Both the position numbers and the translations under genes were made by a program. Source: Microlunatus phosphovorus NM-1 (GTDB taxonomy: Bacteria; Actinomycetota; Actinomycetes; Propionibacteriales; Propionibacteriaceae). Taken from it: 64,000 bases of DNA. The notes beneath the pieces were generated by a model. That model saw nothing but the letters and a program-made list of their open reading frames with translations. It searched no databases and was not told the origin of the DNA. Positions 7,744-55,432 of this stretch are shown here, in pieces; within the stretch, counting starts at the first letter, position 1, and each line of letters begins with the position of its first letter. The stretch is taken from NCBI RefSeq assembly GCF_000270245.1, contig NC_015635.1:3038001-3102000 (forward strand). The letters are read 5' to 3'.

Positions 7744-7833
7744 CAGCGATTCCTTTCACGTCCGAGCACGCTGCTCGTGACAACCGGTCGGCAGTTGCAG
7801 GGCCAACCAGGCCGATTCCGCATCCGCCATGCT

Positions 7834-7900: not shown

Positions 7901-7991
7901 TACATACGGCCAATGTCTCGGGAAGATCGCGACAGAGCCTGGTACTGGCAGGCCCTTCCTCCGCCTCGACCGCTACCCGTACCGTCGGTTC

Positions 7992-8879: not shown

Positions 8880-8892
8880 CGAGAGTCTCGTG

Positions 8893-8907
8893 CCCGGAGA
8901 TTCCGGG
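8893..8907. terminator. Short hairpin between convergent genes
   Basis: CCCGGA and TCCGGG arms (8893-8898, 8902-8907) enclose a 3-base loop in the 31-bp gap between the MmyB-like gene (ends 8879) and the convergent hydrolase (ends 8911). A second small dyad around 8880-8892 adjoins it. No T-run follows on either strand. It is a possible bidirectional terminator. Confidence 0.4.
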
Positions 8908-8910
8908 TCG

Positions 8911-9615: not shown

Positions 9616-9711
9616 ACGGCTGAGACTAACGACCGCCGATCGAACGCCGGAAGAAGTGGCTTCGCGATACAGATGTGACCAAGCTCATGTCTATCGGGCA
9701 GGATGGACCTC

Positions 9712-34709: not shown

Positions 34710-35794
34710 AGCAATCGTCCCTTCTCGGTCCCCAGCACCGACGTCAAGGCGGCCTTGAACGCCGCCATCTCCTCGTCGGTCCCGGCCGAGACACGCAACC
34801 AGCCTTCCGGACCGACGACCCGGATCAGCACACCTTTGTCAAGAAGAGCCTGCCAGACGGCCTGGCGATCGGCGAACCGGCCGAACAGCACGAAGTTGGC
34901 GTCGGAGTCGGCGGCCTGCAGGCCCTGGTCCGCCAACCAGGCGGCGAGGGCGTCCCGATTGGCCCTGAGCTTGTCGACCGCCGCGAGCAGTTCGTCGGCG
35001 TTCGCCAGCGCGACGCGGGCGACAGCCTGGGTGACCGCTGAGAGGTGATAGGGCAGCCGCACGACTCGGAGGGCATCGACGAATTCGCGTGAGGCGGCCA
35101 GATAGCCCAGCCGCCCGCCGGCGAAGGCAAAGGCCTTGGACATCGTCCTGGTCACCGCGAGCCGCGGATAGTCCGGCAGCAGTTCAAGCGCGCTCGGTGT
35201 GCCCGGCCGAACGAACTCGTAGTAGGCCTCATCGACCACCACCACGCCCGGCGCGGCGTCGACGATGGCGCGGATGGTGTCGAGGTCGACCGCCGTACCC
35301 GACGGGTTGTTCGGGCTGGCGATCAAGATGACGTCGGGGCGTTGCTCGGTGACAGCCTGCACCGCCGTGACGGGATCGATGGTGAAGTCATCGCGGCGCG
35401 GGAAGGTCGTCCAGCCGGTGTGGCTGTCGCGGGCGTACTCCGGATACATCGAATAGGTGGGGGCGAAGCTCAACACCGTGCGGCCCGGGCCGCCGAAGGC
35501 CATCAGCACATGCAGCATCACCTCGTTGCTGCCGTTGGCCGCCCACACCTGGTCTGCGGTCAGCCCGTGTCCGAGATAGGCGGCCAGGTCGGCGCGGAGT
35601 TCGACAGCGTCCCGCTCCGGGTAACGGTTCATGCTCTTGGCTGCGGCAGCCGCGGCGGCGCCGATCTCCGCAGCAACCTTGTCGCTGGGCGGGTAGGGGT
35701 TCTCGTTGACATTCAGGCAGTAGGGCACGTCCAGCTGCGGCGCGCCGTACGGGACCTCCCCGACCAGCTCGGGACGGACCGGCAGTCCGCTCAT
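34706..35794 (-). CDS. hisC: Histidinol-phosphate aminotransferase HisC
   Basis: 362 residues. Fold-type I aminotransferase with N-terminal [30 protein letters not shown], the Asp-x-x-Tyr motif [10 protein letters not shown] and the PLP lysine in [17 protein letters not shown] (near 220). It converts imidazole acetol phosphate to histidinol phosphate. It is the first gene of this his cluster; hisD, which commonly precedes hisC in Actinobacteria, is not here, since upstream lie an intergenic gap and the defence island. Confidence 0.95.
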
Positions 35795-35968
35795 CGGCGA
35801 AGATCGATCATCCGTAGCACCCTGCGATTCTAGGGAGACCCTCTGACAACCGACCGGTTATCCAACCGACAAGATGGCAAGCTGGGCCCAGCGATCTGGG
35901 CCTCTTGGTCCGGCCACGACGCATCTGGCATACTTGACGGTGACTGGGGCGCTGAGCCTCAGGAAGTG

Positions 35969-36015: not shown

Positions 36016-36552
36016 TCAGATCTCTCGCACCGCGCTCACGATTGGTCGCACCCGCTGCCGCCAGTGGCCGCCCTTCGCCCAGCACCAGGCGATCGCGTCG
36101 GGCAGGATCAGCAGTGGCTCCTGGTGTCGGGTGACGTGGGCGTAGCTGATCCGATCACGTAGGTCGCCCGTACTCGTGAGGTCCAGGAGTGTTTGGCGGT
36201 CCCAGCTCAGCAGTGTCTCGTCGCGGTCGAACAACACCCTCGTCTGCACGTCCCGCGGAACATCGTCCAGGAGCGCCCGAAAGCACCGCACACGCCGGTC
36301 GCGCTCTGTCCCGATGCGCCCCGCGTCGTAGAGCGCGACTCGAAGTTCGAGACTCTGGAACCTGACGATCGTGTCGGCGATCGCTCGTTTGCGGGACTCC
36401 TTCTCGTCCTTCATGTGCAGGCTTCGCTGTCCGGGCAGAAGTAGACCGTCGAGTTCCCTCTTCGCGATCCGCAACTGGTCATAGCTGCCGATGGCGGCTG
36501 CGACCAGATACCCCTTGGCCTTCGTCTCGTCGACGTAGATGTGCGTACTCAC
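36016..36552 (-). CDS. DUF3800-like protein
   Basis: 178 residues from a GTG at 36552. MSTHIYVDETKAKGYLVAAAIG carries the Asp-Glu pair at the first strand that is typical of DUF3800, an RNase-H-like fold; further acidic residues are in LFDRDETLLSWD and LLILPDAIAWCWAKGGHW, the latter resembling the Asp-containing final helix of the family. Biochemical function is unknown, but the family is common near defence genes and mobile DNA. It overlaps the winged-helix gene upstream by 4 bases (GTGA), so the two form one unit after the BREX operon. Confidence 0.65.
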   Translation of the reverse strand: MSTHIYVDETKAKGYLVAAAIGSYDQLRIAKRELDGLLLPGQRSLHMKDEKESRKRAIADTIVRFQSLELRVALYDAGRIGTERDRRVRCFRALLDDVPRDVQTRVLFDRDETLLSWDRQTLLDLTSTGDLRDRISYAHVTRHQEPLLILPDAIAWCWAKGGHWRQRVRPIVSAVREI

Positions 36553-37445
36553 GGCCAGATCCCTGTCGAAGTACCAGGAGGCGGGGTCACTGGCGCAGGA
36601 TTCGCTGTTGTTTCGGGCGCCAACGCCTTCTTTGACGACTTGATCGGGACGGTCGCAGGCGGGACGAGGAGTCCGACCAGGGTGTAGACATTGACCTCGG
36701 TAGCGCCAGTCGGTGCGAGCGGGGCGGTCTTGATCCGCTTACGAATGCTGACGAGACCCAACTGCTCGAGTGTCTTTATCCCGCGCTCGGCAGTGTCTGC
36801 ACTCCAGCCATACCAATCTGGCACTCGCTCGGACGCCAGTTCGAATCCTGGCTTTTCGTGCAGAGACACAAGCAGCATCGCGAGCGCCGGAGTGTCCAGC
36901 TTCTCGTACCAACCTTCGGTCCAGAACCGATGGCTGAGCTTGAGAAAACGATCAGCGTGGCCGTCTGGTCTGGTGTACGACGTCCCCGATCCGTCGGGCC
37001 GCAGCAGGGTGATAGTGATGTTGCGCGCCTTCCCCGTGCGCTGCCGAGTGATGAGGTTTCGCTGCTCGAGGCGACTTAGGATCTTGGTGGCCGCGGAGGA
37101 CGCGGATGCGCGGTCGGCGGTCTTGGTGGCGTCGAACACACGCGCCCAGACCGCGAGGGGCAGCGTTGTGCTCCAGCCATCTTCTCCTGCCCCGCTGCTT
37201 ATGATCGCGTGCGCGAACAGCAGCGCTAGGAGCCCGCGACGATCGCCCTTGCGGATGAACTCGCTCAGCGGGCCAGCGCGGTTGGCCAAACTCTTGTCGG
37301 GGTTCTGAACAAAGTCCCTCAGCAGCGGGGTGAACTCGCGCCCAGAACGCTTCAGGAGGTAGGCACGAGTCGCCGCCTCGTCAGCCGGCGCCTCGTCCTC
37401 GACGGAAGTGCTGGCGCCAGGATCGGGGTAGGTCGGCTGGTCCAT
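36549..37445 (-). CDS. Hypothetical protein with two winged-helix-like segments
   Basis: 298 residues, not assigned to a named family. Two segments look like winged helices: about 105-155 (ASSAATKILSRLEQRNLITR followed by a KARNITITLLRPDGSG wing) and about 225-255 (TAERGIKTLEQLGLVSIRKR). The N-terminus is acidic and the C-terminus is a Pro/Thr-rich tail. Paired winged helices occur in plasmid replication initiators and in regulators of transcription; no initiator signature is otherwise visible. It begins 260 bp after brxHI on the same strand and overlaps the DUF3800 gene, so it may be a BREX accessory or regulator. Confidence 0.55.
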   Translation of the reverse strand: MDQPTYPDPGASTSVEDEAPADEAATRAYLLKRSGREFTPLLRDFVQNPDKSLANRAGPLSEFIRKGDRRGLLALLFAHAIISSGAGEDGWSTTLPLAVWARVFDATKTADRASASSAATKILSRLEQRNLITRQRTGKARNITITLLRPDGSGTSYTRPDGHADRFLKLSHRFWTEGWYEKLDTPALAMLLVSLHEKPGFELASERVPDWYGWSADTAERGIKTLEQLGLVSIRKRIKTAPLAPTGATEVNVYTLVGLLVPPATVPIKSSKKALAPETTANPAPVTPPPGTSTGIWP

Positions 37446-37704
37446 GCCTCAAGAATCAGGTGTCGCAGCGCGATTTTCAAGCGGACCGTCATCCTCAAGA
37501 TTGACGGCACAGCGGGTGCTTTGGGTAAGCCCTGTGAACTCCATGCGATCTCCAATGGCACAACTATGTAATAACTCCGGTCAACTTCCGGATGAGCGAC
37601 CACTTCCAATCGGGGCGCGGGTTGACACCAAGCGCACCAGCTGGGTGGTCACGGACGATCGGCCTCGAATCCGCGCCCGGTAACCGTCCATCGACGTGGA
37701 AGGC
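37446..37704. other. Intergenic gap between brxHI and the winged-helix gene
   Basis: No convincing coding frame. The half next to the winged-helix gene is more AT-rich than its surroundings and holds two near-identical decamers, CCTCAAGAAT (37447-37456) and CCTCAAGATT (37491-37500), which could be regulator half-sites for the gene starting at 37445. No clear -35/-10 pair, terminator or tRNA was seen. Confidence 0.35.
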
Positions 37705-39885
37705 TCACGCGCCGCCTCTAGGACCTGGCACCCAGGTCGCGATCGGACGCGCCAGAACCCTGATTGCGCCCTCGCGATCAGCCAGCCGGGACTGCAGGGT
37801 GTCGCGAGCCAGATCTGGCGGCAACAGCTCGGAGAACTTCAGCTGTTCCAGCGCCCGGTCGCTGACGAAAGGCCGGAGACCCGCAAGGTCGCTCACCCGA
37901 GCTTGCACCTCGTGCACGGTCCGTCGCAGGTCATGAGCACCGACACTGCTGCGCAGCCCTATTTGGCGGTTGTCGTACACGTAGTCGTCATCGACCAGCG
38001 TTGGGTCGACCGACTCCAATGCAGCAACCAGGATCGCGTTCGCTCGGCCACCGGCCCAGGTCCACCACCGAGTGCGACCGGCGTCAGTGACAACCAGCGT
38101 GCTGTCCGCATCAACCCGGTTCAGGTACTCCGCGTGCACCGCCGGCAGGTGCTCAATCGCCCGGCGCGACAGCCGTGTTCGGGTCGGCAGAGCACCGAGC
38201 AGCACTCGCCGCTGGGCATCGACGAACTCGTGTGTCTGCGGCTGCCCGACGCTGATCCAGCGAGCGGCGCCAGACACGTCGGCCGGCTCGACGTGCGCGC
38301 GCCGCCTGGCCCAGTCGATCGCGGTCACCAGCCACCCCCGCCCGGCCAGTGCGAGCACGCGAGGTCCAGTCACCTTGCGGACGAGTACGAAGGGGTCAAC
38401 CTGACCGATCTCGGTTCGGCCGTGCACGATTGTGAACTGCGGCGAGGACGTGAAGACCGACAGCAACTCGAGGAAATGCCGGCGACCGAACTGCTTCTCC
38501 GCTTCAGGGCCGACGAACACCATCGGGCCGTCGACATCGAGGTGACCGGTCTGGACCATCCAATCGGTGATCAACTCCCGATCGACATCTGACCCGAGCG
38601 CAAGTCCGCCTAACGGCTGCCACCACGAGCCCCGTGGGAGAGCCCGCTTCTGTAGCGCCAGCGCCACGAGTTGCTGGGCCAGCACATGCCGTGGCAACGG
38701 AGGCGGCACTACTGGCTCGACAAAGCCCTCCTCCCAGAGCAGCGCCAGCGCCGTCGTCTGCACGAGTTCATCGTCTGTCACGGCCAGGAACAGCAGGTTG
38801 CGACTGCTGCCGGGTCGGCGCCCGGTGCGCCCGAGCCGTTGCAGGAAGGATGCGACGGTCTGCGGAGTGCCGACCTGGATCACCCGATCAAGATCACCGA
38901 CATCGATCCCCAGCTCCAGGGTTGAGGTCGACACGATGACGCAGTCCCGGGCCTCGGCGAACGCTTGCTCCGCCCGACGCCGCTCGTCAGAACTCAAGGA
39001 GGAATGCGACACGTACGTCTCGGTGCCGAGCCGACGCAGCTGGTTCGCCAGCACCTCGACATTCGCTCGTGTCTCGGCAAAGACCAGCCGCTTCTCCCCC
39101 GTGTGCAGTGCAAAGATGACCTTCGCCGCATTCACCAGGGACGCCACATAGTCGATCTCGATCGACGGTTCGACCACGCTGCCCTCGTTCGACCGGTTGC
39201 CGATCTCCAGACTGATCACCTGGCCTACTCCGCGATCCGCTGACGTCGAGCCTTGGAACCAAGACAACAGCTCTGTAGCGTTGCCAACGGTCGCCGACAG
39301 GCCGATCCGTTGCAACCGGCGGCCCGCGATCTCGCTCACGCGGGCAAGCACCGCGAGGAGGTGCCAGCCCCGGTCGTCGCCGGCGAAGGCATGAATCTCG
39401 TCCACTACGACTGCGCGGACATCTGACAGTAAGGATCGAGGATCGGTGACCGCTGAGACGAGCATCGACTCCAGCGACTCCGGCGTTGTCAGCAGCACAT
39501 CGGGATGTTCGATCGTCAACCGGCGGCGCACCGACTGCTTGGTGTCGCCGTGGCGAACGGCTGCTGTTCGGCCCAGCCAGCCCGCGTACGCGGACAGTCG
39601 CGGCTCAAGGTTGTTGAGGAGGGCCCGCAGCGGGCACACGTAGAGCACAGATGTGCCCCGCCAGTCATCAGCCGCCATCCGGGTGAGGAGTGGGAACAAA
39701 GCGGCCTCGGTCTTCCCGCCGGCGGTCGGAGCCAGCAACAGGGCGTCCTGTCCTGCCACGATGGGCTCGATCGCCTGGGACTGCAATGGCCGCAAGCTCG
39801 TCCAGCCAAGGGTGTTGACGATGTGGTGCTGCACCACCGGATGCAACACCTGAAAAGGATCAGCTGCTTCGCGACCGTCCGTCAT
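37705..39885 (-). CDS. brxHI: BREX type 2 Lhr-like DEAD/DEAH helicase BrxHI
   Basis: About 726 residues from the ATG at 39885 (an in-frame TTG lies one codon earlier). Superfamily 2 helicase: Q-like LRPLQSQAIEP, Walker A APTAGGKTEAAL (about 51-62), LLTTPESLESML, DEIH box VVVDEIHAF (near 160), motif III GLSATVGN, and motif VI FLQRLGRTGRRPGS (near 348). The C-terminal half is a long Lhr-type accessory region. Its ATG shares one base with the brxD stop. In type 2 BREX the helicase is the last of six genes; its step in defence is not established. Confidence 0.9.
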   Translation of the reverse strand: MTDGREAADPFQVLHPVVQHHIVNTLGWTSLRPLQSQAIEPIVAGQDALLLAPTAGGKTEAALFPLLTRMAADDWRGTSVLYVCPLRALLNNLEPRLSAYAGWLGRTAAVRHGDTKQSVRRRLTIEHPDVLLTTPESLESMLVSAVTDPRSLLSDVRAVVVDEIHAFAGDDRGWHLLAVLARVSEIAGRRLQRIGLSATVGNATELLSWFQGSTSADRGVGQVISLEIGNRSNEGSVVEPSIEIDYVASLVNAAKVIFALHTGEKRLVFAETRANVEVLANQLRRLGTETYVSHSSLSSDERRRAEQAFAEARDCVIVSTSTLELGIDVGDLDRVIQVGTPQTVASFLQRLGRTGRRPGSSRNLLFLAVTDDELVQTTALALLWEEGFVEPVVPPPLPRHVLAQQLVALALQKRALPRGSWWQPLGGLALGSDVDRELITDWMVQTGHLDVDGPMVFVGPEAEKQFGRRHFLELLSVFTSSPQFTIVHGRTEIGQVDPFVLVRKVTGPRVLALAGRGWLVTAIDWARRRAHVEPADVSGAARWISVGQPQTHEFVDAQRRVLLGALPTRTRLSRRAIEHLPAVHAEYLNRVDADSTLVVTDAGRTRWWTWAGGRANAILVAALESVDPTLVDDDYVYDNRQIGLRSSVGAHDLRRTVHEVQARVSDLAGLRPFVSDRALEQLKFSELLPPDLARDTLQSRLADREGAIRVLARPIATWVPGPRGGA

Positions 39886-41213
39886 CAAAACTCGAGATCG
39901 ATATCGTCCGGTCCTTGAGCCCCGCGAGCTCGCGGGGAGCTCGCCGTCGCACGCTCGGTCGCGGTCAGTTCTGCGTCGGTGACGGTCAACCGGTAGTGCT
40001 GCCGTGGGTCGAAGTCCTCGAACTGATCAACGCGGTCCAGCACATCTCCGACGAGCTTCTTGAGGAAGACTCGTGGGGCAACGCCGATACTGCCGCCTAG
40101 CGAGCCGGCCACCGCATCAGCCAGCACACCCAGGTATGCATCGTCGACAAGAGCGCGGACCCGATCTGCGTGATCGCTACCCTCTGCGTAAAGATCTCGG
40201 ACCCGAACTCCCAGCTCCACCAGGGATCCCCGGGTGAATCCGGCCAGCCGGATCTGCACTGCTCTGGGGTTGTCGAAGCGTCGCTCAGCAGTGAAGTCGG
40301 CGTGCAGGCGCTGCGCCAACGGCGGCAGCCGAGACAGCCCGGACGGTCCCTCGAAGAAGGCTGGGGTGCCGGTGATCATCAGGTACAGACCTGGGTAGCG
40401 GCCGGCGTCCATCTCGTCGATCAGCTGCCGTAGCGCGTTCAGTGCCTTGTCCCGCACATCCCCGCGCACCCGCTGCAGCGTCTCTACCTCATCGAGCACG
40501 ACCACCAACCCGGGATGCCCAGCGTCCCTCAGTACCAGGAGCAGTCCCTGCAAAGCACCCATCGCACCGAAGTGATCGAGGTCGCCGCGAATCCCGGCAG
40601 ATCGCTTTGCGGCGGCGGCCACATGTGGCTGACCGCCGAGCCAGGCGATTAGCGAGTCCGCGGTCGACTGGTCACCGCCCGACACGGCGGCCCGATAGGC
40701 CCGCAGCGCCTGCGCGAACGCGGGTGTGGTGTTTCGCACCGCAGTGAGCCGTTGCTCCAGCACTCGGTCGACCGAGGCAACTGAGCCCTCACCGCTCTCC
40801 TCGACGTCCGACTCCACGGTAAACAGCCAGGAGTCGAGCACAGAACGGAACGCGCTCGGCGGTACCGACAAGGTCCGCAACGACTCCACAATGCGGCGGT
40901 AGACCGTCTCCAGCCGGTGCAGCGGCGTCTCGGTCTCCGAGATCTGCACCTCCGCCGCGGCGAAGCCTCGCCGCAACGCCAGTTCGCTCAGATAGCGAGC
41001 GAAGAATGTCTTGCCCGATCCGTACTCACCGCGCACGGCCTTGAAGACCGAGCCGCCGCCAGCGACTGTGGTCAGCTCATCGCTGAGCGTGGACTCGAAT
41101 GGCCGCAGGCCAACCGCGAGCAGATCCAGTCCTTGCGCAGGCACAGTGCCTCGACGCAGCGCATCCAGCACCTCCCGTCGGCGGCGCGGCGACACGGGCC
41201 CAGGGTCGGTCAC
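39885..41213 (-). CDS. brxD: BREX type 2 ATP-binding protein BrxD
   Basis: 442 residues from a GTG at 41213. AAA-type ATPase: Walker A GEYGSGKTFFARYL (about 61-74), Walker B LVVVLDEVETLQRVRGD (near 236), arginine-rich sensor region and a helical C-terminal part. Match to BrxD is by this motif spacing and by position between pglZ and brxHI. Overlaps pglZ by 4 bases (GTGA) and brxHI by 1. Presumed cytoplasmic partner of the BREX complex; specific role unknown. Confidence 0.9.
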   Translation of the reverse strand: MTDPGPVSPRRRREVLDALRRGTVPAQGLDLLAVGLRPFESTLSDELTTVAGGGSVFKAVRGEYGSGKTFFARYLSELALRRGFAAAEVQISETETPLHRLETVYRRIVESLRTLSVPPSAFRSVLDSWLFTVESDVEESGEGSVASVDRVLEQRLTAVRNTTPAFAQALRAYRAAVSGGDQSTADSLIAWLGGQPHVAAAAKRSAGIRGDLDHFGAMGALQGLLLVLRDAGHPGLVVVLDEVETLQRVRGDVRDKALNALRQLIDEMDAGRYPGLYLMITGTPAFFEGPSGLSRLPPLAQRLHADFTAERRFDNPRAVQIRLAGFTRGSLVELGVRVRDLYAEGSDHADRVRALVDDAYLGVLADAVAGSLGGSIGVAPRVFLKKLVGDVLDRVDQFEDFDPRQHYRLTVTDAELTATERATASSPRARGAQGPDDIDLEF

Positions 41214-43948
41214 AGCGTTACCCCGAACTGTTCCACCGCGAGCTCAAGATCCAGGATCACCGCGCCCGTCGCCGGTTCACGCGCGATCACGGCGTAACCC
41301 TCGATATTGAGCAGCTTGCGGATCTGCTCCAGGGCCCCTGGCAGCCTGGCCGGTGCGACCTCGAGAACGAGCGCGCACTGCTGCGACGCCAGACGGTGCT
41401 GTGGTGCGGTCAGGAGCCTCGTGAGCACTCGGCTCACCTGCTCGTCAGTGATCGCCAGCCGCCCGACCACCTGCTTCTGCGCTCGATACGCCGACGAGTG
41501 CAGCAGCCTTGTCACCCAGTCCGGTCTCGGCAGCGGCGACGAATCCGCCAGCTCGTCATCAAACAGGGTCGGAGGATCGACGTTCGGTGATCCAGTTGAC
41601 TGGGGGGCATGAGCGGCCCCGACAGGCTCGGACCACCATGCAGGTTGCTGGGACGGGGCCAGACGCACCCCGGGATCCTGGGCCCGTTCGATCGGGACCA
41701 TGATCAACACCGGTATCACGACCTCGGCAGGCGCTGCTCCCCCGTGGTAGCCGGCCTTCATCGGCCCGTACCGTAGCCGTTCGGACACGGCCAGCACCGC
41801 GCGATGGTCCGCGCTCAGTACGCGTGACCCCTCGATCATCACCTCGTCGGCATGCACCGGCTCTTCGGCGTTCCGATAGCGGGTCGTGCTGCTGCCGGGG
41901 TGGGCCCGCTGCTGACCGAGACGACGCTCGACAACGTGTCCATGGTCGGAGGCGATCACCACGGTCCGGCCCGCTTCGCGGGCCCGGTCCAGCAGGGGCC
42001 GCAGGTGCTTGACGGCGTCCACGCTCCAGTGGGTGCCCGCCGGGTCGCTCCGATCCAGGGCGTCGTCGATGGTGTTGAGCACCGCGCTGACCAGACGGGT
42101 GCCGGGATCGTCGATGGCGTGCCGCACTCGATCCGCCAAAGAGTGGCCGAGCCTGGCCACCTCCAAGTCGCGCTTATGGAACAGCGGCGATCCGGTCAGG
42201 CCGTGAGCACGGGTCAGCTCCTCGTAGCCTCGCGTCTCACGATCCTGTGGACCCGCGACCAGCTCACCGGACAACAGCGACGTCCGGCTCACCTCGGTGA
42301 CACTCGGCAACACCGCCAACGCGGCGGCTCGGCGAGGGCTCCCGTCGTCCAGCCGCTCCGCCCAGACGGCAGTCGGATTGTCCAGTAGGTCGGTGAACAC
42401 CTCGGTGGCCACCCCGGTGCTCAGACCATCGAGCACCAGCAGCAGCACCAACTCCGTGCGAGCGAGCGGGAAGACCACCTCCGGCAGTACGTGCTCCAGC
42501 AGGTAGACCCGGCTGCCGTCGTGCTCCAGGTAGCCGTCCTCGGCTCCTTCCTCGTCCCGCACGCCGTTCGCCAGGGACTGGGCGAACTCGAGGTCATGTC
42601 GATCCCGGACGGCACGAACGAGTCCCAGTAGGCCTTCCAGCACCGTTCCCAATGCCGGATCGTCCACCCCGCCGGCGGCGTCATTGACCGCGGCGTCGAC
42701 CCACCCGTCGGTATCCGCCTGGCGTCGGCTGAGCGCTGCCAGCGTGTCGTTGACCGAGGTGTCCGACGACTCGACGACCTGCAACCAGCGTGCCAGTCGG
42801 ACCGATGCCTGGAACACCGGCAGCCGTGGGTCCACCCTCGCCAGCACGTGCCCGAGGACCGCCTGCCAGGCGTGCTCGATCTCCTCGGCAGCTGCCACCG
42901 GCGCCCGCAAGCCGTCAGCCAGTCGATGCAGCCTCCGCTGTAGGCCCGTTCGCAACAGGTCGGATCGCTCGGCCAAGCCTTCTGCTCCGGCGACGCGGAT
43001 CAACCCGTCCGCGGCCGCTATGGTCCGATCGGCATCGGGCCTCGTGCGGTCGTCGGTGAGCAGCGTGGCGGTGACCGTCTCCGCCTGCGGACCGATCAAC
43101 CGCATAGCCTGCTCGACGGCACCGTCCCCGATGCCACCGAGATGACCTGAAAGCCGCGCAACAGCCACCTCGGCTTCATGGCGGTGGCGGGTCTCGGCGT
43201 GCAGGAACCCGACTACCAGACCCAGCGGTACGAGATCGCCGGGCCGACCATCTCGAAAGAGCCGGCGGACCGCCGGGGCTGCCTCACCGGCAGCGTCCGC
43301 AATCCAGTCCACGATTGCGTCCGCCAAGGCGTCGCCACCGGCCTCGCGCAGCTCACCGAGACCACGGGTGGCGTCGGCTCTGGTCGTCCATCCCAGCACG
43401 GAAACCAGATCGAGTGCAGAGGCATCGAGACCCAGCACGGTCCGGGCCACGGAACCGAAGGCGTGATCGCGGGTGAGCATCCCGGCGGGCGCGGCCGGCC
43501 ACCCCTGGGCCGGCATCAGTTCCAGCAGTCCCTGGGCAATCCCCTGCTGAGCGGGAATCGACGTCAGTCGTACGTCGACAGCGACGGCGCCGAAGCGCTG
43601 CCGGACGGCCTGCCACGGGTCCGGGCTGCGCAGCCGCTGCCCGATCAGATGAGCCAGAACTCCCGCGCCGAGATCATCCTCGCCGCGGTCGGTGACCAGC
43701 ACCGACCAGCGATCGGGACGCCAGCCCAGCAAGACCTCCCGCGCGGCCAGGGCCGACTCGGCGTAGCTGACCTCAACCGGTCGTCCACGATGCTCGGTGA
43801 TCAACCGATCCTCGCCTGCCAGCCGGCCGCGGATGCCGAGCACACCGTCCCGGCTGCCGTAGCGCTGGCCGAGGACGTAGTCGATCATGGCGTGCACCAT
43901 GGCCGGCGAGACAACGGTGGCATGGGAGGACCGGGCGACGGTGGTCAT
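41210..43948 (-). CDS. pglZ: BREX phosphatase-like protein PglZ
   Basis: 912 residues from the ATG at 43948, which overlaps the pglY stop (ATGA); the longer frame to 44143 is a shadow of pglY. The alkaline-phosphatase-superfamily domain has the metal-binding and nucleophile region LVLLLVLDGLSTGVATEVF (near 506) and the downstream VVIASDHGHVVERR (near 660) with Asp-His-x-His ligands. A long helical N-terminal half precedes it. PglZ is the hallmark gene of BREX and is needed for both methylation and defence in studied systems. Confidence 0.95.
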   Translation of the reverse strand: MTTVARSSHATVVSPAMVHAMIDYVLGQRYGSRDGVLGIRGRLAGEDRLITEHRGRPVEVSYAESALAAREVLLGWRPDRWSVLVTDRGEDDLGAGVLAHLIGQRLRSPDPWQAVRQRFGAVAVDVRLTSIPAQQGIAQGLLELMPAQGWPAAPAGMLTRDHAFGSVARTVLGLDASALDLVSVLGWTTRADATRGLGELREAGGDALADAIVDWIADAAGEAAPAVRRLFRDGRPGDLVPLGLVVGFLHAETRHRHEAEVAVARLSGHLGGIGDGAVEQAMRLIGPQAETVTATLLTDDRTRPDADRTIAAADGLIRVAGAEGLAERSDLLRTGLQRRLHRLADGLRAPVAAAEEIEHAWQAVLGHVLARVDPRLPVFQASVRLARWLQVVESSDTSVNDTLAALSRRQADTDGWVDAAVNDAAGGVDDPALGTVLEGLLGLVRAVRDRHDLEFAQSLANGVRDEEGAEDGYLEHDGSRVYLLEHVLPEVVFPLARTELVLLLVLDGLSTGVATEVFTDLLDNPTAVWAERLDDGSPRRAAALAVLPSVTEVSRTSLLSGELVAGPQDRETRGYEELTRAHGLTGSPLFHKRDLEVARLGHSLADRVRHAIDDPGTRLVSAVLNTIDDALDRSDPAGTHWSVDAVKHLRPLLDRAREAGRTVVIASDHGHVVERRLGQQRAHPGSSTTRYRNAEEPVHADEVMIEGSRVLSADHRAVLAVSERLRYGPMKAGYHGGAAPAEVVIPVLIMVPIERAQDPGVRLAPSQQPAWWSEPVGAAHAPQSTGSPNVDPPTLFDDELADSSPLPRPDWVTRLLHSSAYRAQKQVVGRLAITDEQVSRVLTRLLTAPQHRLASQQCALVLEVAPARLPGALEQIRKLLNIEGYAVIAREPATGAVILDLELAVEQFGVTL

Positions 43949-46900: not shown

Positions 46901-47664
46901 TGTGCGGCGATCGCGGCCAGGCCGGTGTCCAGGTCGACGTAGCGAGCCTGCCGGACGTAGGACTGGTAGAACCGCTCGACCAGAGCCGACACCAGCGACT
47001 GCCGTTGCGGGGACTCGGGACTGGCAGCACGCGCCTGGGCGTAGCTGTCGGCGTTCCAGGTGCCGGAGCCGAGCAGCGCCGACCACTCGTCGACACCGTC
47101 GCCAACGCTGTCCGTTCCGTTCAGCTGGGCGAAGAACTCTTGGTCACCCAAGACGTCGCGCATTCGCTCGGCATCGGCCAGCAGCCCGTCGGACTGGTGC
47201 AGGCTGGGAAGCGGCGCGGTCGGGTGCAGGGCTCGGATCTGCCGCAGGTAGCCACCGAAGAGCGCGTCCTCCAAGGACTCCGCTCCCAGCAGATGGAAGG
47301 CCAGCGGCAGGATCGTCCTGTCACGCAGCACCGGGTCGACCGAGCCGATCGCTGGTTGCAGCTCGAGCTTGGCGCGGGCCACGGGGTCCTGGCGCAGCAC
47401 GGCGTGCAGTACGGCCATGAAGTGGCTCTTGCCGGAGCCGAACGAGCCGGTCAGGAAGGCGCCGCGGCTGATCCGGCTGGTGACCGCATCTGCCACCAGG
47501 GCCAGCGCGCGCTCGAAGGCGTCGGCGAGGGCCGGGGTGACCACGTAGTTGTCCACCGCAGCCACTGCGTGGCCGGCGCCGACGCTGTCGGTCAGCCGAA
47601 GCACGTAGTCCTCTGCACCCGCATGCTCGGGGATGTCGATGACGTCACGCAGCAGCGCGCTCAC
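43945..47664 (-). CDS. pglY: BREX ATPase PglY (BrxC-like)
   Basis: 1239 residues from a GTG at 47664, overlapping the pglX stop; codons upstream of it belong to pglX. It is a large P-loop protein with Walker A LTGSFGSGKSHFMAVL (about 70-85) and Walker B-like YDAVVLFLDELVLWLAF near 265. The remaining length is mainly helical with no further recognised domain. PglY is the type 2 counterpart of BrxC, a DNA-associated ATPase thought to organise the BREX complex. Codon use and GC match its surroundings, unlike neighbouring pglX. Confidence 0.94.
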   Translation of the reverse strand: MSALLRDVIDIPEHAGAEDYVLRLTDSVGAGHAVAAVDNYVVTPALADAFERALALVADAVTSRISRGAFLTGSFGSGKSHFMAVLHAVLRQDPVARAKLELQPAIGSVDPVLRDRTILPLAFHLLGAESLEDALFGGYLRQIRALHPTAPLPSLHQSDGLLADAERMRDVLGDQEFFAQLNGTDSVGDGVDEWSALLGSGTWNADSYAQARAASPESPQRQSLVSALVERFYQSYVRQARYVDLDTGLAAIAAHAQALGYDAVVLFLDELVLWLAFAVQDREFFRRESQKITKLVESGIGHRPIPLVSFVARQMDLRRWFADAGASGAEQDALDRAFRHQEGRFAQIALGDDNLPYVAQQRLLRPKNDEGRRILDEAFGRISHRAGVWDVLLDGINTDEQHRGADEAAFRQTYPFSPALVSTLRSLASVMQRERTALKVMQQMLVDRRDTLTVDDVIPVGDTFPYVVQGAQPLDQKVAALFRSANTLYADKLEPLLREPYELTEGQLDGREPLPAGLVANQRLARTLLLSAVAPNVPALKGLTASRLASLNHGSIVSPLPGNEATMVTSRVRDWARQVPEIHLDSDVRNPVIRMQLSDVDYESIVEKAKGEDNEGRRRELIKSMVASGLGIELGPEDVRGAYVHQIVWRGSRRDVDLVFGNVRDPGWLSDEQFQNRPNTWRVIIDHPFDEAGHSWLEDSERLDSLISRERHAQTIVWLPRFFTEERMRDVRRLVILNWLLDGSGDRWTSHADHLSETDRVQARAILESSRTTLRHTVERAIQVAYEAAAPTRSGDVIDDAHERVLTSLDRGFDPQRPVGVTLAAAFANLLEQAFDATYPAHPRFQPSDIEVRPRDLKAVYEHVERAMADPDRRVPLQGDIAAVRRVANPLGVGHAAETHFVFGDDRLQPWAAEFERELGRRGNATGPVTVGEVERWIESMTPPNGLRSEVKHLIVLAWAALRRRAWFAYGAPIPAPAPGALRPEMEMREQAMPEPTDWSVANDRAGRLFGTTGGRHLTPQAVADLAQRVKEAVQARYQAVQDLVPAVERAYGRVDLDAGGAGQRLATAKSAAELTQVLRHLDGVDLIRRLAVADVGNETALARSMSTAGAVASALGQFRWERLRPLQDAQRGEGPRAEQAADILEDVRRSLESDEMVVGIVGALERAETALFTWLTPPTLPDSPVRRQDQEQQRRTHPSAGRRTLAAGDSPVAVVSELQAVRDAHPGRAIIVEWHVEE

Positions 47665-50600
47665 GTGCGTGCCCTCCTTCCTCGGGTGGCTGGCTTCGGT
47701 CGCCAGTCGGCCAGCTGCTCCGGCGACCGCCCGACCTGGCGAGACCGCTCGGCCAGCTGCTCGCGGCAGAACGCGGCCAGGCTGACACCGTAGGTGGGAT
47801 CGACCTCGGCATGCCACTGCTCCACCCACGGCTGCAGCTCCGCCAGGCCAGCGACCAACGGAATCAGGCGCTCATCGGTCCAGCCTTCCTCCTCGCGCTC
47901 GGCGATGATCATGGCGAGGGCCAGCGCCTGCTCGGCATGGTCCCAACCCGCCCAGCCCAACAACAGGGTGGAATCGGTACTGCGGCCAGCGTCGGGGTAG
48001 AGGATGAACCGCTCCTTCGGCACGTCCAGCTTGCCGCGAGCCTGCCACCAGATGCTTGACCTGAAGTCCTGCTCCTCGAACGGCCGCGGCAAAGCCGCTG
48101 GGCGAGGAAATTCGTCTCCGTCCTCCATTTGACTGTTGACAATCTCGCGCCAAGAATCACTCTTTCGAAGACCGCCCTCTGTCATCCGATAAGCCGCCAA
48201 AAAGGGGACAGCTTCTCCTGTCAGCAAGTTGGACAAGAACGGCACGATCGACACATCTGGGCGGCGCTCCAGCATACATATTGCACGCACGAGCAATTCT
48301 TCCCGCGACACCATATCTGCGAGCTGAGCGATTGAGATTGGTCGCGGATGCGAGCCTTCCGAAAACCAAAATCGGCGTGACTCAAGTTCAGAAAGAATCC
48401 AATCTCTAAGCGATTGGTCATATCGAGAGTTCCAGTCGTCCCATGTTGACCAACGCCGCTTATATTCGGGACGCTCGAGAAGGCCGAGCAGGTCGTCGCT
48501 GCCGAGCATTTCAATCCTTCGCTCGACCAATGCGCGATAGCTCGGAGACCAGCCAGATGGCAACTCAGTATGTGGAACTATGCCATGTTCCGCAAACCAC
48601 GTAGGAATTTCGCCAGCCTTGGATACGCCCCGAGCCAATGCGATTTCGAAGGCCCTCTGGCCGGGCAGAATTTTGGGTGGAAACTCGCACCACATCTGCA
48701 TCGAGGCCGATTGGAAGACTCCCACGACGCCATATACGTACCAGTCCAGCTCCTCTTGCAATGAGATCATGTGCGCCAGACTTGAACTGTATTTGTTGCT
48801 AGCGTCACTCCGGAGTTTTAGCGGGCTCGTCATCAGCGGATCAAGGTCACGAGTTTCAAGCACAAGTTCCTGAATCCTTCTGGCCAGACTATAGGGAAGG
48901 TCCTCCGGAATCGGAATCTCGGCCACGTTGCTGACGTTGAACTGGTATGTGCGCCTCCAGACATCGCCGGCCGCCCCGCCCTTGGGTTTGCACCTTTGAC
49001 GCAACCAAAAGCATGCCAATGAAGAATTCAAGAAGCCGCAGAGGCCTTGAACTTCCTCGTCGGTCATCGAGTCTGGCAGTGCAATGCAAGGAGCAGTCCT
49101 ACCATAAACGGAGTCATCGGAACGGATGACGAAATGATTGTGCGTCGCTACTTCAGCATAGGCAATCACCCTTTGCGATAACAGGCGACGCTCGTTCATC
49201 TGCGAATATTCCCACCAATGCAAGCCAATATCTACCTGGTAACCACTCTGGGCTCGACGATTCATCAGGCTCGCCTTTAGTGGCCAAAGAGCCTTCCTGG
49301 CTTGATCGTCAATCGCCGGCTTTCCATCGCTGCCATATGGACAGATAGCATCCATCCCGCCTATGGCCCGCCAATCGCGCAGATCTCCCCCTGCGCAGAA
49401 CCTACGGCGAGATCCTTCGCCGATCCCGAGTCGTTGTAGAACATGCCCGCCACGGAGGTAAGCATCGTCCTCGCGGGTCACGGCCATAAACCCTACGTCC
49501 CTTGTAACGTCGCGAAGTCGGCGGGGACCCGTTTCCAGTTTGGACATAAGCTTGGGAACCGCGCCGCCAGCAAGTATCCATGGGTGCCTCGAAAGCTCTG
49601 AGGGGTCGCGGTCGCCTACGGTTATCCAGTCATCCTCATATCCAGGCTCCTCCACGCGCTCCACAATTCGCAGCCAGTGCGCGCTGCCTCCAACACGAGC
49701 CGTAGCCCTGGTCTCGCGCAGTCCTTTTCCCGTAAGAACCCGAATAACTCGACCATCCTGGGGCTCGTTCCGACCAACGATGGTTACAGTTGGCGTGCCA
49801 TCGGCGTTGTGTCCAGGAATCCATGCGCCTTCGGTATCGATAACGCGCACGAGGCGGACTCTTGGTAGATACTCCTCAACCAACCTGTCTCCGAACTCTC
49901 GCTTCATGAAAGAGTTGGAGGCGATCATGCCCACCCAGCCCGACGGTCGATTATCTGTGCGAGCGACTGCAAGTTGGAAGAAGCGCTCAACAAAAGGGAC
50001 CGTCAACGCGTAGTTTGCCTTACAGCTCAAGTACCTCCGTTTGTACTCTCGCTTGAGCACTGGATCCTTTACCGGTATGTATGGGGGATTACCAACGACC
50101 GCATCATATCTACTGGGTGCTAGGACGCTTCTTAATTCGTACGCGTCTTCTGTTGAGTAGGAAACTTGACTCGCCAGCAGATCAGGATCCGCACCGTCGA
50201 ACGGTAACGGAGAATCGCTAGCTCCAAAGAGTAGCGAGTCGCCGGTGTAGACGTGGTAGTCGAAGTGCGGGGCGTGCTCCAGGGACCTGAGACCGCAGGC
50301 TCGCAAGGCTTCGACCGTGAGTCGGAAGCGGGCAATGGCCACTGCGAACGGGTTGAGGTCTACGCCGTAAACCGACTTGAGGGCCAGGTTCACGCGGGCT
50401 TGCAGCTCCATCCCGGGCGCCGCCTTGTCCCACCGATCGAGCAGCCGTCGGAAGGCGCCAAGCAGGAAGTGGCCGGAGCCGCAGGTCGGGTCGATCAGTC
50501 GGAAGCCTTCGAGCGGGCGCTCGGCAAGAGCCGGGTCCATGGTCTGGTCGAGGATGAACTCCTCCACGAACTCCGGCGTCTGCAGCAGGGCGTAGGTCTT

Positions 50601-51182
50601 CTTCGCATGATCGGACAGATCCTGGTACAGATCACCAAGGAACCGGGTGGTCAACTGCTCGTCTGTGAAGTCGTACAGCAGGGCGCCGTCCTCGGTGCGC
50701 TGCCGCCAGAAGGCGATCAGGTCCGAGCACGCCTGACCCGATGGTGACACCAGCCAGAGCCCGGAGTGCTCGTCGACCAACCCAGCCGTTGCCGGTCGCT
50801 TGGCCAGATGAGCGGTCGCCTGGTCCAACCACTCCCGGTCGCTGTCGTCTGGGTGCTCCCGGAAGTAGGCGAGTTGGGCGTCCAGTGCCTCCTGCCGGCG
50901 AGTTGGCGGACCGGCGATCCAGACCGGGGAGAGCAGGCCGTTGTCCTCGCAGAACCGGACGAACACCGTAGTCAGCACCCAAGCCACCGCGGCCTGGGTG
51001 ATCTGGTCGTCCCGCCAGGAGGTCCAAGCACTGGCGGTGCGGTCGGCGTCGACCTGGCGGCGGTGTCGGGCCTGCCAGTCCGCCTTGATCACCGGCAGCT
51101 GCTCGAGTCGCCCGCGGATGTCGTCCTCCAGGACGAGCACCTGCTTCTTCAGGTCGGCGACCAGGGCTGCGGCGTTGATCAC
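47661..51182 (-). CDS. pglX: BREX N6-adenine DNA methyltransferase PglX
   Basis: 1173 residues from a GTG at 51182. N-terminal helical region, SAM motif [15 protein letters not shown] (about 229-242), catalytic motif IV NPPY in [12 protein letters not shown] (about 360-371), then a long target-recognition and C-terminal region. It marks host DNA at non-palindromic sites, providing self-recognition for the system. From about codon 320 to codon 1020 (roughly 50220 down to 48120) the DNA is clearly more AT-rich than either end of the gene and than pglW and pglY. The frame is intact and no long homopolymer (phase-variable tract) is visible. Overlaps pglW and pglY by 4 bases each. Confidence 0.96.
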
Positions 51183-54100
51183 GCGGATGCTCCTTCCTGG
51201 ACAGGCTCAGCAATGGCGGCGTACTGGGCATCGACCCAGCTGGAGTCGACGGGCACGAACTGTCCCGGGGCGGCCAACGGCACCGGTTTGTGATCCAGCA
51301 GGGCGCCCTGGTTGGCGTGCAGCTGTGGAACGACCAGCCAGACGGCTCGTGAGCGGCGGGTCCCGAGGTCCGTCCACCGGCTCAGCCGGTTGACCGCGCC
51401 GTAGCGGGCCAACGGCTCTGCGTCAGCGAGCACCACCGGACCCGGTCCGGCATCTTCCAGCGTTGCCTGGATGCGCTCTTCCAGCAGCGGCAGGCTGCGC
51501 TCGACCAACGCCTTGATGCCCTGTGCGTCTCGGCTGCCCGATGGCTGGGCGTCAGCGGCCCGGACCCGGGCCCAGGGCAGTCCGACCTGGTCGGCCTGCT
51601 GGTGCATGATCGCGATCAGCTCCGCCGAGATGTTGATCAAGCGAGCCGAGTAGGTGGTCTCGAGCACGGTGGGCAGCTTGAGCAGGGCCCGGGCTGGGAC
51701 GCCGAGTGCGAGGAACGAGCGGCGGGCGAGACTGTCGGCCAGCCGTTGGCCGATCGCACCCAGGGCGGAGACCGGGGTTGGCTCCGGTGCGATGTCGGTG
51801 ACTTGACGCGAGGGCAGGCCAGTTGTGCCGTGGTCGGCGCGCGGCGCCCGATAGACCCGCTCCCGGTCGTCGTAGCGCAACCCCAGTCCTGAGTCAGCGA
51901 TCAGTTGATCCAGCCGAGGCCGCTCCGGCAGCGGTCGCAGCGCCGGGAACCGCACGCGGACTCGATCCCGGATCTCGGTCGGCGGCAATGCCTGACCGGC
52001 CGCCAAGGAGCCGAGAGCGTGGGCGATGGCTCGGGGCAACGGCAGCCCTCGGTGGTGGAGCTCACCAGTGCCGGAGAGCGCGGCAGCGGTCGAAGTGGCA
52101 GCAGCAAGCCCTGCCAGACGGGTCGACCCCCGCAGCGCGACTGGCAGCTGGTCAACTCCACCAGCGGCCCTGCTCAGCTCCTCGTTCACGCGAATAGCGG
52201 CCAGGACGGCGATGGTCGGGTCGGCCGGGCTGGCGTCTCGAAGCAGCCGGTCCGCTTCCTCCCCGAGTTGGCCTGCAAGGTCAAGGAGGCTGGCCTCGCG
52301 GGCAACCAAGAGAGGTGACGGGTCACGGCGCCGAACCACATACTCTACTGTCCGCTCATCGGCCCGAGACAGAGCCCGACGTCGATCGACGGCGATGCGG
52401 AGCACGCCTGCCGCGATGCGTTCGGAGTCGGAGGGCTCGTTCGCCGGGTCGGTCACCATCAAGGCGAGCAGGTGCCTGGTCAGCTCATCCGCTGTGGCGA
52501 CGCCGCCCAGCACGTCCAGTCGAGCATCCACCTCCGCACCCAGCCGGGTCAGCAAGGTCAAGGTGGTCTCATCCGCCGCCCACAGATCGTGGAGCTCGGC
52601 CACCACCTGCGTAACACGAGCGGCGGTGACCGGTTCAGGCAGCAGAGCCCCCAGCTGAGCCTGGGTCGCGAACGCATCGGCCTGGCCGGTCACCCCCAGC
52701 ATCATCGACGCCAGGGCGGTTCGGATCCGGGCCCTGCGTGCGTGGGTCGGCGCGAGCAGCATCTCGGCCAGGTCGTACGGAACCGGCAGCGTGCTCTGCT
52801 GCCACGACCCCCCATCGCGACGACCGCGCACCGGCCCGAGCCGGGCCCGCCAGCGCGACACCGCCTCCTTGATCTGGTCACGCGTGGCGCGCGCCACCCC
52901 TGGCAGCCGATTCAGCCGTACCGGATCCACAGCGACCAGCTCGCCAACCGTGGTCACACCCAATGGCTCCAGTGCCGACAATGCCCGAGCGGACAGCCCG
53001 GACCCGGTCAAGGATGTCTCCAGGGTCGCAGCGCCGACCAGCTCGTCGGCGTTGTCGGGGGCGGTGGTGTGGGACTGACCGAACACCTGCTGCCAGCCGG
53101 CGAGCAGCTCGGCCGCCGTGTGCTGCCGGTCAGCGACCCGGCGAGCCAGAGCCCGCTGGAAGAACGACAGCATCTCGTGCGCCACAGCCGGGTCGAAGCG
53201 ATCCAGCCGGAGCGTCACCTCGGCGTCGATGACCGCCGGATCCGACAGACCGTCGCCGTACTGCGGTGGCTGCCCGGTAGCCATCTCCAGCAGTACGGCA
53301 GCGGCTGCGTACCGCTCGGCCGCCGAGTCGTACCGGTCCCGACCGTCGGCTCCCAGGAACGGATCCAGGTACGGCGGCGTTCCCGCCCGCAGCGCCGAGG
53401 CGGCAGCGCGCGACAGGGAGAAGTCGAACAGCACCAGATGCGCGGCGCGGTCTTCTCGAGTGGCCCGGATCTCGCGGACCCCGAGATTGCTGGGCTTGAT
53501 GTCACGGTGGTCGACGCCGGCCCGGTCGAGAGCAATCAGGGCCTCCAGAATGTCGGTGCCCCAACGCTCCAAGAGGTCGAGCGACATCCGGCCGCGGGCG
53601 CTCAGCGCGTGGGCCAGCGTCTGCTCACCCGCGCTCTCCAGCAGCAGGGCAGTCCGGCCGCCCACGATCAGTGGTCCCTCGACCAGTGAGACCAGGCGAG
53701 GGCTGCGGAGACCAGTCAGCACCTCGGCCTCGTCGTGCAGCCGCTGCCGTGCCGCGTCGTCGACGGCCACTTTCAGCACCCGCTCGCTGTCGGCATGCGC
53801 CAGGTCGCGGACCAGCAGGCCTACTGCGGTGGAGCCGGTGCCGAGCCGGCGGATCAGCCGGAACCGCCCGTCCATGATGGCGTCGGGTGGCGCCTCCAGT
53901 GGATCGACCACCGGTTCGTGCTCGGTCTCGACCCGCTCGGCCTCACTCAGCTCGGCCAGGAAGGCGGTCACGTCCGCGGTCCGCTCGCTGACCGCCGGCC
54001 GGGTCGCATGCAGGATGGCCCGGCGCAAGGTAGACGACACCTGCGGCAGCTCGGGAGCGAGATCGAGGCCCGACTGCTCGCGGAGCCGATCCCGAAGCGT

Positions 54101-55432
54101 CGACGCGGACGTCGCAGCCGGCTGGCCGGCCAGCAGATAGAAGGCGAGGGCGCCCAGGCCGAAAACATCGACCCGGACGCGGTCCACGCCGGCGGCCAAG
54201 GCGCCCTCCGGTGCGGCGAAAGGTCCCAGACCACCAGCGTCGTCGCCGATGAGTTTGCTCGGATCGAAGAGGGCTGTAACGCCGCCGGCGGACGATGCCG
54301 TCTGGTCGGTAAACGGCACCTGGCCGGCGCTCTGCCAGTCGCGAACCTGGACGGTGACAGCGCTGCCCTGCTCACGCACCCAGACCGCGCCGGGGCGGAT
54401 GCCGCGGTGCACAACCCGGTTGCCGTGGGCGTACTGGAGGGTCTCGCCCACCTGGCGGATGATGGCGAGCTGGGTAGTCAAAGGGATGCCGTCCGGTCGG
54501 TCGGCCAGCCAAAGGTCGAGTCGCTGCCAGGACTCGTCGAGTGGGTAGACCAGGCCGACACCCAAGTCGGCTTCGACCAGGTCCTGCGGGGCCAGCAGGC
54601 CCTCGTGGTTCAGCCGTCGCATCACGGTGAACTCGTGCTCGGCGATGCGCCGGATCCGGCGGCGCTCGTCGTCACTGGCTCCCGGGGCGGCGATCTGGAA
54701 GCGGATCCGGGCGCGCTCCCGCTGAGTGAAGCGGTGGAAGGCATCCCAGTCCTGCCAGCCGTCGCCTTCACCGACCGGCTCGCCTTCGATCACCCAGGAT
54801 CCGGCTTCGCGCTCGCGCCGGGGCACCAGCCCGATGCGTGCCATCAACTCGGCCACGATGCGCTCGTGAATGGCGACGCCGGGTCGAGCCGGCTCCAGCA
54901 GCAGGTCGGAGATCCCCGGCAGGCGGGTGGTTCGCGCCTGCCCGTCGAGCCCGTAGAGACCGAGCGCGCTCGCTTCCGACAGTTCGCACCGTAGACCTGG
55001 GTGGTGCAGGAACACGGCCTCCTGGATGAACGGAACGACCTCGCGTACCGGGGGTGCGTTTTGCACCCTCTTCTCGCGGACCCAACTCCGAAACTCGTCT
55101 TGGAGCTTGCTCGCCAAATACTGCGCCTTGCGGCGCGCCAGCTTGAGCGGAGAGTCTTCGGCGCGATGACCGTCGCGCAACCAGCGGTGGTCGTCTCCGC
55201 GCAGCCGACCCGAGTAGTACTTGAGTTCGACCAGGTGCAGTCGCCGTCGTCCGAGCACCAGCAGATCGACCTCATGCCAGCGACCGTGAGAGTCGCGGAA
55301 CTCGAAGTTCGACCAGGCTCGGAAGGGCGGCTGACTCGGCAGCAGGTCCTTGACGTAGCGCACGCCCTCGGTCTCGTGGGTGAACTGCGACGGCGACACC
55401 TCGACCCACCGAGGGTCAGCCGCTGGTGTCAT
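51179..55432 (-). CDS. pglW: BREX serine/threonine kinase PglW
   Basis: About 1417 residues from the ATG at 55432, which has GGAGGG at good spacing. Order: NERD nuclease-related domain (FEFRDSHGRWHEVDLLVL and HLVELKYYSGRL, about 40-75); a first kinase fold (about 210-470) with a degraded catalytic loop HRGIRPGAVW (near 340) and DWQ in place of DFG, hence a probable pseudokinase; a second kinase (about 515-800) with LKVAVDD, HRDIKPSNLG (near 640), FDFSLSR and GTPPYLDP, probably active; a helix-hairpin-helix-like segment (LEPLGVTTVGELVAVD, LNRLPGVARATRDQI); and a long C-terminal region. First gene of the operon, absent from type 1 BREX. Confidence 0.95.
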   Translation of the reverse strand: MTPAADPRWVEVSPSQFTHETEGVRYVKDLLPSQPPFRAWSNFEFRDSHGRWHEVDLLVLGRRRLHLVELKYYSGRLRGDDHRWLRDGHRAEDSPLKLARRKAQYLASKLQDEFRSWVREKRVQNAPPVREVVPFIQEAVFLHHPGLRCELSEASALGLYGLDGQARTTRLPGISDLLLEPARPGVAIHERIVAELMARIGLVPRREREAGSWVIEGEPVGEGDGWQDWDAFHRFTQRERARIRFQIAAPGASDDERRRIRRIAEHEFTVMRRLNHEGLLAPQDLVEADLGVGLVYPLDESWQRLDLWLADRPDGIPLTTQLAIIRQVGETLQYAHGNRVVHRGIRPGAVWVREQGSAVTVQVRDWQSAGQVPFTDQTASSAGGVTALFDPSKLIGDDAGGLGPFAAPEGALAAGVDRVRVDVFGLGALAFYLLAGQPAATSASTLRDRLREQSGLDLAPELPQVSSTLRRAILHATRPAVSERTADVTAFLAELSEAERVETEHEPVVDPLEAPPDAIMDGRFRLIRRLGTGSTAVGLLVRDLAHADSERVLKVAVDDAARQRLHDEAEVLTGLRSPRLVSLVEGPLIVGGRTALLLESAGEQTLAHALSARGRMSLDLLERWGTDILEALIALDRAGVDHRDIKPSNLGVREIRATREDRAAHLVLFDFSLSRAAASALRAGTPPYLDPFLGADGRDRYDSAAERYAAAAVLLEMATGQPPQYGDGLSDPAVIDAEVTLRLDRFDPAVAHEMLSFFQRALARRVADRQHTAAELLAGWQQVFGQSHTTAPDNADELVGAATLETSLTGSGLSARALSALEPLGVTTVGELVAVDPVRLNRLPGVARATRDQIKEAVSRWRARLGPVRGRRDGGSWQQSTLPVPYDLAEMLLAPTHARRARIRTALASMMLGVTGQADAFATQAQLGALLPEPVTAARVTQVVAELHDLWAADETTLTLLTRLGAEVDARLDVLGGVATADELTRHLLALMVTDPANEPSDSERIAAGVLRIAVDRRRALSRADERTVEYVVRRRDPSPLLVAREASLLDLAGQLGEEADRLLRDASPADPTIAVLAAIRVNEELSRAAGGVDQLPVALRGSTRLAGLAAATSTAAALSGTGELHHRGLPLPRAIAHALGSLAAGQALPPTEIRDRVRVRFPALRPLPERPRLDQLIADSGLGLRYDDRERVYRAPRADHGTTGLPSRQVTDIAPEPTPVSALGAIGQRLADSLARRSFLALGVPARALLKLPTVLETTYSARLINISAELIAIMHQQADQVGLPWARVRAADAQPSGSRDAQGIKALVERSLPLLEERIQATLEDAGPGPVVLADAEPLARYGAVNRLSRWTDLGTRRSRAVWLVVPQLHANQGALLDHKPVPLAAPGQFVPVDSSWVDAQYAAIAEPVQEGASA

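Follow-up and report, generated by a model that had tools for sequence, protein, structure and literature searches.

A complete type 2 BREX operon, as read from sequence, beside the histidine operon of Microlunatus phosphovorus NM-1, with a mosaic pglX and a probable passenger gene pair

The window analysed here is a 64-kb stretch (bases 3,038,001-3,102,000) of the 5.68 Mb single-contig genome of Microlunatus phosphovorus NM-1. Next to the histidine operon it carries an island of eight open reading frames, all intact and all on the minus strand. Judged by its gene content, the island is a complete, ordinary anti-phage operon of the type 2 bacteriophage exclusion (BREX) class, also called phage growth limitation (Pgl), whose genes pglW, pglX, pglY, pglZ, brxD and brxHI span 37705-55432. 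A winged-helix gene and a DUF3800-like gene follow downstream (Table 1). Taken together, it is very probable that the operon beside the his genes is complete, that the centre of pglX has a separate history, and that the downstream pair is a separate unit.

The BREX operon and its layout

The reading as a complete type 2 BREX system, already proposed in an initial annotation made from the sequence, is borne out by PADLOC, which assigns each of the six proteins, along almost its entire length, to the BREX family expected for it, and by NCBIfam models for four of them. PglW scores 1537 bits in PADLOC (residues 5-1406) and 1286 bits with the NCBIfam PglW model (cut-off 990); the corresponding values are 1614 and 1389 bits for PglX (BREX-2 PglX, cut-off 400), 958 and 933 bits for PglZ (BREX-2 PglZ, cut-off 200), and 674 and 664 bits for BrxD (BrxD, cut-off 350). 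PglY matches the PADLOC BrxC-PglY family at 1599 bits. BrxHI reaches 1014 bits in PADLOC and contains DEAD and Helicase_C domains; no BREX model for it is among the 25 of 40 NCBIfam matches listed. Two scores weigh against the assignment: PglY stays under the cut-off of the NCBIfam BREX-2 PglY model (962 bits, cut-off 1700), and PglX also matches the PADLOC type IIG restriction-methyltransferase model, at 1237 bits, lower than its PglX score.

The pglX/pglY (brxC)/pglZ core of type 2 is present together with pglW, brxD and brxHI, and frames and core motifs are intact. PglX contains DPxCGSG at residue 231 and NPPY at residue 365. PglW matches Pfam NERD and Pkinase; in its N-terminal kinase-like region HRG replaces HRD, and the other kinase keeps HRD. 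NPPY, DPxCGSG and HRD are motifs expected of these enzymes. From family knowledge, PglX would mark host adenines at one motif, PglW would act as a sensor kinase that signals, and PglY, PglZ, BrxD, BrxHI and PglW would block unmarked phage DNA.

The frame coordinates confirm that the six genes stand in type 2 order with junction overlaps of 1 or 4 bases. The overlap is 4 bases at pglW/pglX, pglX/pglY, pglY/pglZ and pglZ/brxD; at brxD/brxHI it is 1 base if brxHI starts at ATG 39885, or 4 bases if it starts at TTG 39888. A GGAGG lies a few bases 5' of the pglW ATG at 55432. We infer that the six BREX genes would be transcribed from a single promoter and translationally coupled. The downstream pair, annotated as following about 260 bp later on the same strand, does so: 259 bases separate the end of brxHI from the start of the winged-helix gene, and the two genes of the pair overlap by 4 bases. 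Between 35600 and 37900, a promoter/terminator scan returned no promoter-like site and four terminator-like sites (mean 1.2 in shuffled sequence), and the hairpin 3' of the DUF3800-like gene is no stronger than in shuffled sequence (z -0.96).

Equally upheld is the description of the island as free of transfer RNA (tRNA), integrase and transposase genes. ARAGORN found no tRNA gene in the 64-kb window, and no integrase or transposase gene is present among the island frames, which were the part of the 64 kb scanned; this is because the eight frames fill the island. No direct repeat of at least 9 bases is common to the three boundary stretches compared at the island ends, and inverted matches of 9-10 bases at the boundaries were judged to be due to chance. 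Phase variation via homopolymer slippage was considered and rejected, as none of the eight genes contains a run of at least 7 bases.

Table 1. Features of the island and its border, in positions of the window
Feature	Coordinates	Strand	Description
pglW	51179..55432	-	1417 aa; NERD domain, N-terminal kinase-like region, kinase
pglX	47661..51182	-	1173 aa; adenine methyltransferase and specificity protein
pglX central segment, codons 317-1030	48093..50234	-	read as exchanged specificity cassette
pglY	43945..47664	-	1239 aa; BrxC-type ATPase
pglZ	41210..43948	-	912 aa from ATG 43948
brxD	39885..41213	-	442 aa
brxHI helicase	37705..39885	-	726 aa (ATG 39885) or 727 aa (TTG 39888)
winged-helix gene	36549..37445	-	298 aa; read as passenger
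DUF3800-like gene	36016..36552	-	178 aa; read as passenger alongside the winged-helix gene
hisD relic	35791..35820	-	hisD start plus nine codons, with a stop that overlaps the beginning of hisC

Separate history of the pglX centre

The G+C content at third codon positions (GC3) of pglX is 0.853 in codons 1-300, 0.591 in codons 301-1050 and 0.847 in codons 1051-1173. The best change points fall at codons 316 and 1030, with a GC3 of 0.59 between them against 0.85 in the ends. Protein identity to the nearest listed relative, P0242 (a Microlunatus protein by its source name), is 83-89% in residues 1-300 and 83% in residues 1031-1173, and only 28-61% between these ends. In windows of 30 residues it drops within residues 271-360 and recovers at 1051, and these steps coincide with those in GC3 to within about 20 codons. 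The low overall identity of the two proteins (59%) is mostly due to the centre. On these two lines of sequence evidence, pglX is a mosaic whose middle differs in history from its ends, and PglX appears to carry a swapped-in middle section.

Other type 2 loci were sampled through pglZ. Of 146 related genomes (the window's own included), 16 had a match, counting a marginal one and that of the window itself, and 59 of 394 genomes of the class had a match. Stretches around 55 strong matches were taken and compared with the window proteins by tblastn; left out were members of the class-level set (E <1e-160) near contig ends (G352, G376, G337, G405, G489, G152 and G154) and weak partial matches. A pglX match was found in 40 of the 55 stretches, brxHI is in view in 51, and the order pglY-pglZ-brxD-brxHI is that of the window wherever it can be seen. 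Seven stretches (L087, L090, L112, L113, L114, L118 and L119) have about 1.4 to 9.4 kb of extra DNA between pglZ and brxD. One genome, G036, has two pglZ places of equal score on two contigs (L085 and L086) with the same set of BREX matches, which is either a duplication or an assembly effect; L086 is counted among the 55 and was left out of the GC3, correlation and fourfold-site comparisons.

A lower GC3 in the pglX centre recurs in these loci. GC3 is higher in the pglX end than in the centre at 35 of the 37 loci with enough aligned sequence (mean difference 0.146), and higher in pglY than in the centre at 36 of 37. As controls, two parts of pglY differ by a mean of -0.013 and pglY and pglZ by 0.028 (39 loci each). 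For four full-length pglX genes from one genus, 4 of the 6 possible pairs were compared in 60-codon windows. Identity is at least 0.90 outside residues 361-840, 0.76-0.84 in residues 781-840, and reaches its minimum of 0.25-0.42 in residues 541-660. Differences at fourfold-degenerate sites run at 0.50-0.92 in codons 361-660, 0.30-0.62 in 661-780 and 0.00-0.53 elsewhere, and GC3 also dips in the highly divergent stretch.

The same contrast was seen more broadly at pairs of loci with a PglY identity of at least 0.72, of which 35 out of 62 had enough sites; these 35 pairs come from 26 loci and hence are not independent. In all 35, the fourfold-site difference in codons 361-780 is larger than in both pglY and the pglX end, with means of 0.63 for the centre, 0.34 for pglY and 0.35 for the end. 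Part of this contrast is compositional, because fourfold differences saturate at a higher level when GC3 is lower; by our own estimate the flanks nevertheless remain well short of saturation. At the protein level, the set comprised 116 PglX sequences (119 relatives and the window's, minus four near-identical ones), in which identities at the two ends correlate at 0.78 with each other and at 0.43 and 0.46 with the centre.

Recurrent exchange of a specificity cassette would best explain this pattern, and swapping of a comparable segment seems frequent among the type 2 BREX loci of actinobacteria. In the window, the centre would have been replaced by recombination with a lower-GC donor, and the BREX target was probably reset through it. 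More generally, it is likely that type 2 BREX retargets through one long pglX cassette, running from about the NPPY motif into DUF7008, that homologous recombination in the conserved ends on either side swaps this cassette, in many cases with a donor of lower GC, and that the neighbouring genes are co-inherited. Several observations weigh against exchange. No donor was found for the centre of the window's pglX, the best matches being 47% identical or less, and a GC3 difference, though a small one, also separates pglY from pglZ (mean 0.028, 39 loci). Across 28 loci, pairwise identities in the pglX centre correlate at 0.37 with those in the second half of PglY, but the pglX end reaches only 0.44 and BrxHI 0.35, against 0.74 for PglZ, which does not set the centre apart. 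In addition, among 111 PglX pairs that share at least 90% identity at both ends, centre identity ranges over 0.50-0.80, and these centre identities do not form two peaks.

This last distribution speaks for an alternative in which the centre was not exchanged and simply evolves very fast under selection by phages; rapid divergence of target-recognition domains is also stated in PMC12839542. Such an origin is unlikely. Selection on amino acids alone would not make fourfold sites diverge so much more than they do in the flanks, nor would it lower GC3 with sharp edges, and in one PglX pair the centre is more identical (0.96) than the N-terminal end (0.87). Cassette exchange, if it occurs, would help to explain differing phage exclusion among related strains. 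Strains whose operons are nearly identical would then differ in the motifs by which they methylate and exclude, and, if one cassette sets the target, the specificity of type 2 BREX would move between strains independently of its machinery. The pglX pattern therefore marks a segment worth study, and the near-identical operons that exist naturally make the claim directly testable.

The insertion site and the downstream gene pair

The island was initially described as bordering hisC. It does adjoin hisC, whose native neighbour was hisD, now a nine-codon relic. In all 12 relatives whose sequence was fetched, the island is absent at this site and hisD lies directly upstream of hisC; a DUF554 or AzlC gene stands 0.04-0.8 kb away on the far side of hisD in 11 of them, as measured from BLAST match edges. 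Across 19 other genomes of the genus there is no type 2 pglZ match, and a hisD match adjoins hisC in 18, with none in G014 (83% complete). Compared with the regions upstream of hisD and hisC in the 12 relatives, the window retains only the start of hisD and nine codons before hisC, preceded by a -10-like TAGAAT box (35827-35832) that most relatives share. Insertion of the island probably took place between the hisD promoter and DUF554. The loss of hisD itself was probably an internal deletion, because the box and the hisD start still stand next to hisC; for the same reason, replacement of hisD by the island is less likely.

The only hisD match in the genome itself lies elsewhere (C1:1950121-1951419; L140, L142), in a frame open for 519 codons near TetR-like and amino acid permease-like frames (named by eye). 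It is 54-64% identical to hisD of the relatives searched. A tree of 18 hisD sequences places this remote copy outside 12 sequences of the genus (support 100/99), on a long branch whose exact place is unsure. A stop flagged in it was dismissed, as it lies outside the gene. G005, which is closest to the window when judged by hisC, has 2.6 kb between DUF554 and hisD, and two other long frames (L076 2777-4980) lie within it. Because these lie in the same space, the his site may be one that receives cargo repeatedly.

The initial annotation suggested that the winged-helix and DUF3800-like genes could be regulators or extra effectors of BREX. A search for the pair beside other type 2 BREX loci does not support this, as the pair was found away from BREX. 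Neither gene was detected by tblastn in any of the 55 type 2 BREX stretches, which reach 0.6 to 7.6 kb past brxHI in 51 of 55, so that copies farther from brxHI would be missed. Conversely, no BREX gene was detected at any of the 35 loci with a winged-helix relative taken from named genomes (flanks of at most 10 kb per side, shorter in many). A comparable search is sensitive enough to recover, in L060, a winged-helix gene with 32% identity. The 146 related genomes include 6 with a winged-helix match and 24 with a DUF3800-like match. A pglZ and a winged-helix match occur together only in the window's own genome, and the only other genome with both pglZ and DUF3800-like matches, G115, has them about 0.55 Mb apart.

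The position of the pair, on the same strand 259 bases downstream of brxHI, would suit a regulator accompanied by an extra RNase H-type effector, and PMC12839542 describes effectors of the nuclease kind located next to BREX. The lack of association in both sets of loci makes such an accessory role very improbable, and DUF3800 has no mention in the main text of that paper. The pair is probably a passenger that adjoins BREX without being part of it, a separate unit that likewise occurs on plasmids and in other islands. On this reading, a misleading candidate for BREX accessory genes drops out.

What the pair does on its own is suggested by its relatives. The winged-helix protein has a weak likeness to replication initiators (PHROG 678, E 5e-5, residues 176-237 only; PHROG 186, E 8.5e-4), and its gene matched one viral contig and no phage record. 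Plasmid records were matched by the winged-helix gene (41) and by the DUF3800-like gene (50). Examples are a Curtobacterium plasmid that carries the pair some 0.9 kb past a TraM-recognition gene, and a Rhodococcus plasmid in which a MobF relaxase gene is followed by the winged-helix gene. Around 34 of the 35 winged-helix loci, 82 neighbour proteins, some of which are the DUF3800-like gene product itself, include Lamassu, Shedu, pAgo and restriction model matches, three integrase matches and two resolvase matches. In L025, the gene that immediately follows a Lamassu LmuB-like gene (7169-9712) is a winged-helix relative (10001-10801).

These plasmid and neighbour matches, together with invariant acidic residues in the DUF3800-like family (D8, E9 and D152 in 30 aligned members), would fit a small independent module that serves defence or belongs to a mobile element. 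This is a tentative possibility. The neighbour matches are raw counts without a control neighbour set, a DUF3800-like gene was detected beside the winged-helix gene at only 6 of the 35 loci (E 1e-5 or better), and neither protein has a confident PADLOC match. A sequence search of solved structures likewise gave nothing useful for either.

The DUF3800 label is itself weak. The window protein matches no Pfam family at E 1 or better and stays under the gathering score of PF12686, with which it has an N-terminal acidic motif in common. Among its relatives, 2 of 30 match PF12686 (best E 0.01), and an hhalign comparison with DUF3800 proteins, which covered the 4 of 11 whose frames could be located, gave an uninformative alignment of 11 columns. 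A distant relation to DUF3800 is nevertheless likely, because one place in G101 links the two: the window protein matches C1:506969-507394 (E 1.1e-5, 27%), and the protein at C1:506921-507400 matches PF12686 above its cut-off. DUF3800 has been predicted to adopt an RNase H fold in which a catalytic rearrangement has taken place (PMC10910872).

Comparison with known specificity systems

In type I restriction-modification systems, specificity is exchanged through HsdS, in which a conserved frame holds an exchanged DNA-reading part. The pglX pattern resembles this in both respects. It differs in that the stretch concerned is internal to a BREX methyltransferase, where it extends from near the NPPY motif into DUF7008, and in that its donor was not found.

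Type 2 BREX was first described, as Pgl, in Streptomyces coelicolor (PMC12839542). The system portrayed there has the same six genes, with a PglW that combines a NERD domain with an inactive and an active kinase. The operon in the window is set apart from known examples by its PglX, distant even from the nearest listed relative, and by its unusual site beside the his operon. For type 2 BREX, PMC12839542 infers differing targets from divergent target-recognition domains. A similar divergence within pglX, between two otherwise similar type 1 BREX systems, has been attributed to variable target recognition domains (PMC9009780); that comparison concerns type 1, covers two systems and, as described there, does not include a test of synonymous sites or GC3. 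Among the titles and abstract openings listed from the openly licensed literature, no report of cassette exchange in type 2 pglX was found. In summary, the BREX operon adds one more case to a known class of system, and the pglX cassette is its interesting part.

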